From NCBI GenBank assembly GCA_016208165.1, contig JACQYL010000015.1:1-51812 (forward strand): DNA of 51,812 nucleotides. The letters are read 5' to 3'. The notes under the pieces are model-generated. The model did not search any database, was not told the origin of the DNA, and saw nothing but the letters and a program-made list of their open reading frames with translations. Made by a program: the position numbers and the translations under genes. Every line of letters begins with the position of its first letter. Position 1 is the stretch's first letter. The DNA is from Deltaproteobacteria bacterium (lineage in GTDB: Bacteria; Desulfobacterota; Desulfarculia; JACQYL01). Positions 2,561 through 24,063 of this stretch are shown piece after piece.

Positions 2561-4200
2561 GCTTGACATGTAGAACCTATGTTTTATAATCCAATCATGC
2601 CCCATTTGTACAAGAAGACCTTCAAGGGTAGAACCTACTGGTACCTTCGGGAGGTCCATCGCGTCGGCGGTAAGGTCCGACTGAAGTGGCAGAAGTATCT
2701 CGGAACGCCGGAAACCATCCTCGCCAAATTCGAAGAAGCCGAGAGTCTCGGCAGGCCTTGCAGGCTCAAAACCGAATCCTTTGGAGCCCTCTTCGTAGCC
2801 CAGGCCCTTGAACAAGAACTGGATACCATAGGCATCGTCGACAGTATCGTCCCAAGGGGGCGCAAGGAAAATTTGACTCAACTGACCTCCGAGCGCTACT
2901 GGGAGAAGTGGGATCGCGTTTCCAAGGAGCAGGTCGAGAAAGCCGGTCGGCTCTTCCTCGAAAGGCTCTGGGCCGGCCGCCGACCGAGCCCCGACACCGT
3001 GCTGTTCGACACCACCAACTATTTCACCTACATGGCCACCAAGACCGGTTCCCATCTGGCGGTAAGGGGTTACAGCAAGAGCGGAAAACACCACCTGCGG
3101 CAAGTCGGTCTCGGATTATTGGCGGATCGAGCCACCTCGCTGCCCATCCATTACAAGGTCTACCCCGGCAACCTCCATGATTCCAAGCTGTTCGAGCAGA
3201 TTCTCGACGAGCTGTTCGGCGTGATCCTGGGCTTTACGGAAGGAGACAAAACCCTTACCGTGGTCTTCGACAAGGGCATGAACTCAAAAGAAAACCTCGC
3301 CCTCATCGACGCCCAAAGCCGGATCTATTTCGTCACAACCTATTCCACCTATTTTGCCGACCATCTGGCCGCGCTGAATCCCGAGCACTTCCTCGTTCTC
3401 GATATCCCCAAAAACCATGGGCTCGAGGACCAAGAACGCCCCGACGACAGACTCACCGCTTACCGGACCAAGCTGACCCTTTGGGGCCGGGAGCGCACCG
3501 TGGTCGTCACCTTCAACCCGGTTACCAAGCGCAAAAAACTTCACGACATGACCAGGAAACTGGACCAACTGAAAACGGAACTCGTCCAATTCCGGCAAAA
3601 GTTCCGGGACCAGGAGCCTCAATGGCGAAGCCCCAAGACCATCGCCACCCGTTATCACAAGGTCTGTGAACAGCTCCATATCAGTCACAAATTCTATCGC
3701 CTGGCTTTCACGGAAAACACCATGAGCTTCCGTAGGGATTATGCGGAGATCGAGGCGGCAAAGGCCGTCATGGGGAAAAACCTCATCGTTACCGACCATC
3801 ACGATTGGATTACCGAGGCCATCGTCCTGGCCTCCCTCGATAGATATCGCATCGAGCAGCAGTTTCGGGTGAGCAAGGCTCCATGCCACGTCAGAATCAA
3901 CCCGATGTTTCACTGGACCGACAGCAAAATCCGCTGCCATCTTCTGACGTGTATCATCGCCCTCTCTTGCCTGAGACTTCTCGAACTCAAGGTAGGCGGG
4001 CCCGAAACCGCCAAAACGCTCATGGAGGAAATGACCGGCCTGAACTCCGCCTTGAGCTGGTACAAGGGCGCCGCCCTCCCCATCGTTCAAATCGAGGAAC
4101 CCAACGAGATCCAGACCAAGGTATTGACCGCCCTTGGATATACAATAAAAGACGGTTCGGTTCTACAACTACGGCATGTGCTCAGTTTCATTGGAGGTTA
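2490..4200 (+). mobile_element. IS1634-like insertion sequence (ends approximate)
   Basis: The element is defined by the transposase at 2597-4213. The motif GTAGAACCTA occurs three times at its left side (from 2490, 2570 and 2628), and its inverse GGTTCTAC lies at 4159-4166 near the right side; these are the best candidates for terminal repeats. The exact ends and any target-site duplication cannot be fixed by eye. The right end must lie close to the 3' end of mrp, because the transposase frame overlaps mrp by 16 bases. Confidence 0.55.
2563..2590 (+). promoter_or_regulatory. Consensus sigma-70 promoter of the transposase
   Basis: A perfect TTGACA (2563-2568) and a perfect TATAAT (2585-2590) are separated by 16 bases. 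A start point 7 bases downstream would fall at about 2597, which is the first base of the best ATG for the transposase. The transcript would then have little or no leader. Confidence 0.75.
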
Positions 4201-4213
4201 TTCGGAACTTTGA
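2597..4213 (+). CDS. IS1634-family DDE transposase
   Basis: A protein of 538 aa from the ATG at 2597. An upstream ATG at 2579 lies inside the promoter and is unlikely to be used. The N-terminus (GRTYWYLREVHRVGGKVRLKWQKYLG) is typical of IS1634/IS1549-type transposases. The catalytic triad is visible as D138 (VLFDTTNYF), D225 (VVFDKGMNS) and E419 (RYRIEQQFRVSK), followed by the usual helical C-terminus. Length is normal for the family and no frameshift is seen, so the enzyme could be active. The last residues run into the 3' end of mrp, on the other strand, so the stop codon may come from the target DNA. There is no Shine-Dalgarno sequence before 2597, which fits leaderless translation. Confidence 0.9.
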   Translation: MPHLYKKTFKGRTYWYLREVHRVGGKVRLKWQKYLGTPETILAKFEEAESLGRPCRLKTESFGALFVAQALEQELDTIGIVDSIVPRGRKENLTQLTSERYWEKWDRVSKEQVEKAGRLFLERLWAGRRPSPDTVLFDTTNYFTYMATKTGSHLAVRGYSKSGKHHLRQVGLGLLADRATSLPIHYKVYPGNLHDSKLFEQILDELFGVILGFTEGDKTLTVVFDKGMNSKENLALIDAQSRIYFVTTYSTYFADHLAALNPEHFLVLDIPKNHGLEDQERPDDRLTAYRTKLTLWGRERTVVVTFNPVTKRKKLHDMTRKLDQLKTELVQFRQKFRDQEPQWRSPKTIATRYHKVCEQLHISHKFYRLAFTENTMSFRRDYAEIEAAKAVMGKNLIVTDHHDWITEAIVLASLDRYRIEQQFRVSKAPCHVRINPMFHWTDSKIRCHLLTCIIALSCLRLLELKVGGPETAKTLMEEMTGLNSALSWYKGAALPIVQIEEPNEIQTKVLTALGYTIKDGSVLQLRHVLSFIGGYSEL

Positions 4214-22052: not shown

Positions 22053-22790
22053 CTATGCGTTCCAAACAAAGAAACCCAGCGCGCTTCGGGATTCCGTATC
22101 GAGCGAGAGGAATCGAACACGCATCGATATATCGTCCGCCCGAGCCGACAAGACCTCCGCCTTTACACGAATCTGCGGTCGGTCCTGACTCAGTTTGAAC
22201 CGCATGAAAAACTCATCCCCCAGTTCAAATACGGTCAAGCAGCGGAGCCAGCATTCATCCATGCCGATTCGATCGATCATGCACTCCTCGAGTTGGTCGC
22301 CGATCTCGATGGATCCCGTCAGGCTCGTTTCGATGATGCGGGGCGAGTGAGGGGCCCTGTCGGGCGCCAGTTGAATCTGGACGCGTTTCAATGTCAGTGT
22401 CAAACGGGTCTGCGCTTTCCGATCCGCCCTGGACTCTTGTTGCTCTCCAACGTCACTGATGCGGGCCGCCTCCATCAGTAGATATTCCCAGCCTTTTTGT
22501 ATGGAGGGTTCGTTGCGGTGGGGACCCTCCTGGAATTCAAAGTCGCCGCTGCTGCTGTTCACCAATCGGTAGAATGCCTTTTCTCCCGACAGACTGCCAA
22601 ACACGGCATGCACGATCTGTCCCTCGGTAAGGTACACCCATCCTGTTTTGGACGGCTCCCGAATTTCTGCTGTCCCGGTCAATCCGTTTATACAGCACAA
22701 TTGCAGGATGTCCGAAATTTGTATTCCTTGTGCTTCCTTCATTTCACATGAATCCATCCGGATGATGCCGGTATTGTATGACCTCTTCAC
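22053..22790 (-). CDS. DUF4388 (PATAN) protein with PilZ-like C-terminus
   Basis: A protein of 245 aa from a GTG at 22790; later ATGs at codons 12 and 17 are alternative starts and none has a strong ribosome-binding site. Residues ~22-100 match DUF4388: SDILQLCCINGLTGTAEI, GWVYLTEGQIVHAVFGSLSGEKAFYRLV, DFEF. DUF4388 modules occur in signalling proteins, often joined to response-regulator or PilZ domains. The C-terminal half is beta-rich with a PilZ-like arrangement (VKAEVLSARADDISMRVRFLSLD), but the RxxxR and D-x-S-x-x-G residues that bind cyclic di-GMP are not evident. It is divergent from the FtsZ-like gene. Confidence 0.75.
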   Translation of the reverse strand: MKRSYNTGIIRMDSCEMKEAQGIQISDILQLCCINGLTGTAEIREPSKTGWVYLTEGQIVHAVFGSLSGEKAFYRLVNSSSGDFEFQEGPHRNEPSIQKGWEYLLMEAARISDVGEQQESRADRKAQTRLTLTLKRVQIQLAPDRAPHSPRIIETSLTGSIEIGDQLEECMIDRIGMDECWLRCLTVFELGDEFFMRFKLSQDRPQIRVKAEVLSARADDISMRVRFLSLDTESRSALGFFVWNA

Positions 22791-23106
22791 CAGCGGGCTT
22801 TTCTTAACATATCAAAGTCCGGGCTGGATGATCAAGCACCCCCTCCGGTACGCTCGATTCTTCCCGGCGCGATCCAACACCTTTTCAGATTGAAGCCTTC
22901 CGAGAAAAGATGGAAGATGCCGTGGTTTGACCTGAGACGGACGGACTCATTTCGGACCGGTTGGGTTGACGTCTTACGCTCTTTCTCCGTTGCTTTCTCC
23001 CGTGTGATGGTTAAGTATATGTTCATCTCTGTCCCGCGCCGACGGATTGGCGGCGCAGCCGGCCCGGCCTTGATGACGGCGTTAAATAAGACTCTTGGAG
23101 GAAGTT
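22791..23106. other. Divergent intergenic region before the FtsZ-like gene
   Basis: About 315 bases without a supported gene. It must hold the promoters for the DUF4388 gene (minus) and the FtsZ-like gene (plus). No clear consensus promoter was found. Confidence 0.4.
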
Positions 23107-24063
23107 GTGAAACCATACATTATCGGAGTTGGCAGACGAGGTGCGGAAATTGTACAAAAACAGCTGAGGACCGGCCTAGCGGATACGGTCGTTCTGTTTG
23201 CGGATACGGACGCGGACGATCTGGAATTGAGGCCCGAGGAAAGCCGCTTACGACTGGGGGCGAGCATTCCGCCGGGGGAAGTGATCCGTAATACTATTTC
23301 GTTCTCCTACGATGCGGCCATGCAGGATCGGGACGCCATCAAGTCCCGGCTGAGCGGCGCCGGAATCGTAATCCTCGTAGCCGGCTTAGGCGGTGGAACA
23401 GGGCCGGGAGGATCGGAAGCCATAGCCCGCATGTGTGAAGAGCTCGGGATTCCTGTGGTAGCGTTCGTTACCAAACCGTTCAGGATCGAAGGAGAAAGCA
23501 GGCTTAACCGAGGGCGAATCGGATTTCGTAAAGTGTACAATGCTGCAAGCCTGATCGTATCTTTCCCACAGGACGTGATCATACCTTATTCCCAGAGAAT
23601 CACCCGCGTGCGCGAACTCATCGATATCGTAGATGAGTTTGTGGTCGCGGGAATTCAAGCGTGCGTGGAAACCGCAGCGGATGAAAGCGCCGAAACCGCC
23701 TTGAGGTCCTTGATTGCCGCTTCTCCGGAAGGCGTTTTCGGTTACGGGCTTTCGGATAATCCCGATGGTATGGACGAGGCTCTCACCTTCGCCCTGGAAT
23801 CTCCCTTCATAAAAAGTATATCCCTCAGCCGCGCCAAAGGTTTGGCGGTGACCGTACGAGGGTCGAAGTCTCCGGATGGTCAGTCGCTGCGCTCCGATGT
23901 GGGAAGAATCGTGGACCAGAAATGCCCCGAAGCCAAGGTGATCATCCGTCAGACAACAGACCATCGCATCGACGGCCTTCAGATATCCCTGCTGCTTACA
24001 GGCGAGTTCGGCGAATCCATCCCTTTACCCATGGATTCTTTCACTCCTGTCTACGAAGGCTGA
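23107..24063 (+). CDS. Divergent FtsZ/tubulin-like protein lacking the T7-loop acid residues
   Basis: A protein of 318 aa from the GTG at 23107, with a strong GGAGG five bases upstream. The FtsZ plan is plain: IGVGRRGAEIV at the N-terminus, ADTDADDL (34-39 region) like the FtsZ NTD motif, and the tubulin signature GLGGGTGPG at 93-101. Later come PVVAFVTKPF, a C-terminal ESPFIKSISLSRAKGLAVTVRG block, and VIIRQTTDH. The activating T7 loop, NxDxxD in FtsZ, is replaced around residues 201-210 by SLIAASPEGV with no acidic pair. Nucleotide binding is therefore likely but hydrolysis upon polymerisation is doubtful. The C-terminal FtsA/ZipA-binding tail is also absent. It resembles the non-division FtsZ-like families thought to act in membrane remodelling. 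Confidence 0.88.
   Translation: MKPYIIGVGRRGAEIVQKQLRTGLADTVVLFADTDADDLELRPEESRLRLGASIPPGEVIRNTISFSYDAAMQDRDAIKSRLSGAGIVILVAGLGGGTGPGGSEAIARMCEELGIPVVAFVTKPFRIEGESRLNRGRIGFRKVYNAASLIVSFPQDVIIPYSQRITRVRELIDIVDEFVVAGIQACVETAADESAETALRSLIAASPEGVFGYGLSDNPDGMDEALTFALESPFIKSISLSRAKGLAVTVRGSKSPDGQSLRSDVGRIVDQKCPEAKVIIRQTTDHRIDGLQISLLLTGEFGESIPLPMDSFTPVYEG

Follow-up and report, generated by a model that had tools for sequence, protein, structure and literature searches.

Beside its canonical division gene, this Desulfarculia genome encodes a diverged second FtsZ of 318 residues (positions 23107-24063, plus strand), which has kept the fold and the T4 and T5 loops of FtsZ but no longer has its T7 loop, T3 motif or C-terminal tail. 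We believe that this protein is probably a non-dividing or regulatory FtsZ instead of a ring builder. In the tubulin family the active site is shared between two subunits, and we propose, with a probability of about 0.4, that the paralogue is a soluble regulatory FtsZ: it would bind guanine nucleotide through its retained T4 and T5, would neither hydrolyze GTP nor complete the active site of another subunit, and would not form normal treadmilling homofilaments. If this is true, the protein is a natural FtsZ from which one half of the active site was removed while the other remained constrained, and it would provide a test case for the passage of an FtsZ paralogue to a regulator. Its effect on the canonical FtsZ is directly measurable. 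Pseudokinases are likewise enzyme paralogues turned regulators.

The window, a stretch of 51,812 nucleotides, is one whole contig (C15) of a 5.69 Mb assembly in 142 contigs. The paralogue's reading frame starts with a GTG at 23107 and runs uninterrupted through 318 codons to a stop at 24061-24063, with a Shine-Dalgarno-like GGAGG (23097-23101, plus strand) 5 nt ahead of the start. Its codon-position GC is gene-like, GC3 being slightly lower than in the neighbouring genes (0.60 versus 0.63-0.74). The contig also carries the single-copy metG, which is 54-64% identical to its counterparts in class relatives, and is therefore no obvious contaminant. A promoter and terminator scan returned nothing exceeding chance. 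A transposase gene (DDE_Tnp_1, window positions 2579-4213) lies about 19 kb upstream.

The earlier note on this DNA had aligned the protein through the GTPase and C-terminal domains of FtsZ, and the predicted structure bears this out. The AF2 model (pLDDT 82.9, pTM 0.86) shows the complete two-domain fold, while at the level of Pfam profiles the Tubulin domain PF00091 scores above its cut-off (60.4 bits, cut-off 33) and FtsZ_C below (17.7 bits, cut-off 27). The top Foldseek matches of the model are FtsZ chains (TM 0.86), and the matches listed by VIA-align are all FtsZ chains, although this listing does not speak against other families; the match to 1ofu, which spans 299 residues, reaches Z 37.5. 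The canonical bacterial comparators are 6ll6, 1ofu and 6unx; the engineered delta-T7 FtsZ of S. aureus is also found, with Z 36.6 to the model for 3wgk/3wgl and with 3wgm among the Foldseek matches. By sequence, the paralogue is nearer to FtsZ than to CetZ or TubZ: a PDB search returns FtsZ chains (best E 5.4e-26, about 95 bits), as against 21 bits for 4b46, which we take to be CetZ, and 11.5 bits for the TubZ 4xcq. It is nonetheless far from canonical FtsZ, with which it shares the two-domain fold, the T4 GGGTG and T5 but only about 24% mean identity, when FtsZs are about 51% identical among themselves; against the curated TIGR00065 ftsZ equivalog it reaches 104.1 bits, far below the cut-off of 295.

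A catalytic T7 loop is absent, as the earlier note had claimed, but the residues that it had named are not those of T7. The stretch SLIAASPEGV (residues 201-210; 23707-23736, plus strand), described there as the replacement of the loop, is helix H8 and its end in the model and pairs in the alignment with the H8 stretch TVMSEMGYAM of E. coli. The T7 equivalent lies just upstream, in the contracted region ETAADESAETA (residues 188-198; 23668-23700, plus strand), where both alignments and model place a deletion of NxDxxD. In fact, ITRPGLMNVDFADVRTVMSEMGYAM of E. coli aligns to VETAADESAETA-LRSLIAASPEGV of the paralogue with about 4 residues missing at NVDFAD, a picture that is the same whether the FtsZs aligned come from the class, the phylum, E. 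coli, archaea or viruses, and in the AF2 model H7 (168-190) and H8 (193-205) are joined by a turn of two residues. A single-sequence AF2 control is of too low quality for a judgement of the loop (pLDDT 42), but its helix limits are roughly the same (H7 166-189, H8 195-205). Thus, the loop had been misplaced and the conclusion that it is lost still holds. We considered and rejected an acidic T7 loop elsewhere in the protein, since E193 and E196 sit in H8 of the shortened connection in the model. The FtsA-binding tail is missing as well: the protein stops about 18 residues past the last strand, in a short end FGESIPLPMDSFTPVYEG (residues 301-318; 24007-24060, plus strand; pLDDT below 50 at 306-318) with no linker and no FtsA/ZipA-binding peptide.

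What remains of the active site is concentrated around the phosphates. Across 52 canonical FtsZ sequences, 91 alignment columns reach at least 90% conservation, and the paralogue retains 39 of them. The T4 signature AGLGGGTGPGG (residues 92-102; 23380-23412, plus strand) is intact in 8/8 columns, in keeping with the GGGTG that had been read from the sequence, and so is the T5 segment VTKPFRIEGESR (residues 121-132; 23467-23502, plus strand; 6/6), which includes E128 and R132, the equivalents of E. coli E138 and R142. Elsewhere, T1 keeps 3/6, T2 1/3, T3 1/6, T6/H7 2/6 and T7/H8 0/7. In T1 (residues 7-14; 23125-23148, plus strand), GVGRRGAE stands for GVGGGGGN, so that GGxxN has become RRxxE; in the T3 region (residues 52-67; 23260-23307, plus strand) the GLGAGANPEVG motif is lost. 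The equivalents of E. coli D45 and R142 are retained and those of Q47 (T2), N207, D209 and D212 are gone. Under random loss, with columns treated as independent, the retention of 14/14 T4 and T5 columns against 39/91 overall has a hypergeometric p of 1.4e-6, which indicates that the phosphate site is constrained. We read this as selection for binding of nucleotide phosphates, with catalysis and the T3/T7 assembly contacts released. It had been proposed that the protein should bind GTP; the fully kept T4 and T5 make binding plausible, and the divergence of T1, of Q47 in T2 and of T3 makes it less secure.

A canonical ftsZ is present in the genome. It is the sole other match to the paralogue in a search of its own genome, and it lies on another contig (C26) directly 3' of ftsA, in a dcw run annotated from open reading frames as FtsW-MurG-MurC-MurB-FtsQ-FtsA-FtsZ; it has a full T7 loop and the tail DEPTFLRKQAD. 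Together with the loss of T7, this copy supports the view of the paralogue as a presumptively non-catalytic FtsZ beside a canonical one.

We found no orthologue of the paralogue among the 62 other genomes of the class and 395 genomes of the phylum (E<=1e-33), where only ordinary FtsZ was returned; the thresholds were tuned to sequences closer than canonical FtsZ, and an equally diverged orthologue could be missed. Outside the phylum the search was by peptide and DNA patterns. Peptide scans of GTDB and IMG/VR contigs gave no orthologue, the GGGTGPG DNA pattern in the same contigs gave FtsZ-type matches in Methylobacterium, Bathyarchaeota, Nanohalarchaeota and haloarchaea and none closer, and plasmid and phage searches gave ordinary FtsZ. 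In the phylogeny, the paralogue stands at the end of a branch of about 10 changes per column, with no firm placement and no recent duplication evident. A similar protein has arisen elsewhere in the class, in a genome (G032) with three tandem ftsZ genes after ftsA. The middle copy (L227:2717-3730, on G032:C26) has, like the paralogue, both FtsZ domains but neither T7 loop nor tail; unlike it, this copy adjoins ftsZ in the dcw cluster, retains T3 and has an altered T4 (LAGGTGS). It is no closer to the paralogue than canonical FtsZ and groups with its own neighbour, so T7 and tail were lost independently, with at least two origins in the class. Such joint losses recur, and we count this in favour of the regulatory reading.

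The gene divergent from the paralogue (22053-22790, minus strand) had been called DUF4388/PilZ-like, and Pfam indeed finds both domains, a PatA-N-like DUF4388 and a PilZ, in its 245-residue product. The case for a signal-controlled system of the two genes is one of adjacency and is weakened by several observations. The neighbour has no match in genomes of the class at 1e-12. DUF4388 is common: of 297 phylum genomes 90 have matches, most of which span this domain alone, and there are three such places in the paralogue's own genome. No clean RxxxR ... [DN]xSxxG motif is seen in the PilZ domain, which has ETSLTG at the [DN]xSxxG position. DUF4388 is presumably the same as the PATAN domain. PatA of Anabaena, a PATAN protein, binds the divisome proteins ZipN and SepF (PMC7380572). 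A functional link between neighbour and paralogue is possible.

Several known FtsZ variants resemble the paralogue in part. The engineered delta-T7 FtsZ of S. aureus (3wgk, 3wgl, 3wgm) also has a shortened T7 in an otherwise FtsZ-like nucleotide site. It is a laboratory construct with the intact T1 and T3 of its wild type, whereas the paralogue is natural and has further losses. Another natural T7-less homologue, Nmar_1262 of Nitrosopumilus maritimus, does not form polymers when expressed in yeast; in contrast to the paralogue it is archaeal, has also lost GGGTGTG (AGKAGSA) and has no working FtsZ alongside, its host being thought to divide by Cdv proteins (PMC3684127). FtsZl1 and FtsZl2, like the paralogue, are FtsZ-superfamily proteins that accompany a normal FtsZ. 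FtsZl1 has a coiled coil and a helical C-terminal domain after its FtsZ-like domain and vWA/OmpA/GTPase neighbours, and FtsZl2 has complete T1-T7 motifs and its own C-terminal region of about 300 residues (PMC2875224). The paralogue is neither: with 318 residues, an FtsZ C-terminal domain and no vWA/OmpA/GTPase neighbours among the proteins scanned it is not an FtsZl1, and without T7 or an additional C-terminal region it is not an FtsZl2. Judged from its sequence, it is best seen as a variant in its own right: a presumed pseudoenzyme with both FtsZ domains, in a genome that also has a functional FtsZ.

How might such a protein act? In S. aureus FtsZ, the catalytic water is held by D210 and D213 (top T7 loop) and G72 (bottom T3 loop); the mutations D46A, R143Q, N208L, D210N and D213N each stop assembly, and bottom-face mutants are toxic and block division (PMC8936486). 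The paralogue has the equivalents of D46 and R143 and lacks those of N208, D210 and D213. Incoming subunits are proposed to join the T7 end by their nucleotide (top) face (PMC8936486). The most economical mode, although speculative, would be that the paralogue uses its top face to dock where a canonical FtsZ filament grows, at the exposed T7 end, and, because its bottom face is missing, blocks further growth. Alternatively, and equally speculatively, it could titrate FtsZ partners. However, the poor conservation of the top face (T3 1/6, T1 3/6, T6/H7 2/6) counts against docking on canonical FtsZ, which is therefore not assured, and at 24% identity the two proteins may no longer interact. Nothing in the gene context of the paralogue links it to division, and as no orthologues were found there are no conserved surfaces to compare. 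We hold it decidedly unlikely that the protein is a pseudo-FtsZ that caps the cell's FtsZ filaments at their growing end, a counterpart of MciZ from within the FtsZ family, and of a type that evolved at least twice in the class through joint loss of T7 and tail.

Three rival readings can be set against this one. The earlier note envisioned stable, non-hydrolysing filaments, and an independent cytoskeletal FtsZ of this kind, serving positioning or membrane shaping under the control of the DUF4388/PilZ neighbour, would draw on the crystal filaments formed by T7-truncated GTP-bound S. aureus FtsZ (PMC8936486), on the similarity of 3wgk/3wgl to the model and, if our equation of DUF4388 with PATAN is correct, on the divisome partners of PatA. 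The same work weakens it, as T7 point mutations block assembly in solution (PMC8936486), which makes stable homofilaments of the paralogue less likely; both assembly faces are diverged, there is no membrane tether and the common DUF4388 neighbour has no conserved linkage, so we regard this reading as unlikely. Somewhat unlikely, too, is a nucleotide-bound FtsZ-fold protein with a function unrelated to FtsZ or filaments, such as a GTP/GDP sensor or a scaffold: a constrained T4/T5 with neither assembly interface kept and the long orphan branch speak for it, yet the whole two-domain fold is maintained (TM 0.86) when the N-terminal domain would suffice for the nucleotide. Finally, the gene might have no function, being a duplicate in decay or an artefact of the assembly, which could account for the failure of the class, phylum, GTDB, IMG/VR, plasmid and phage searches to return an orthologue, for the many active-site residues lost and for the lower GC3. 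This we find highly doubtful, because the 318-codon frame is intact and preceded by a Shine-Dalgarno sequence, the chance of zero stops after about 230 replaced codons being about 1e-4, because T4 and T5 are kept in full and because metG on the same contig resembles that of class relatives. Selection on the phosphate loops appears to fit better than decay.

FtsZ genes vary in other ways in the genomes searched. Tandem duplications of ftsZ occur in several genomes of one family of the class (f2; L228-L233), with NxDxxD in most copies. One genome (G327:C674) has an FtsZ apparently split over two genes (L235:466-1071 and L235:1579-2484), one encoding the N-terminal GTPase part and the second a protein that has a TAT-like signal RRDFLKGLG and contains the FtsZ C-terminal half with NLDLADFEAVL. 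Two short FtsZ-like proteins (L234:1587-2291 on G308:C99 and L236:1428-2018 on G202:C264) consist of the GTPase domain only, with T4 altered to GGGIGTG and GGTTGTF, respectively, and adjoin apparent aroA and mutL. The IMG/VR contigs that match the FtsZ T4 pattern (L128-L207) mostly encode tail-less FtsZs of about 310 residues in which T7 is intact.
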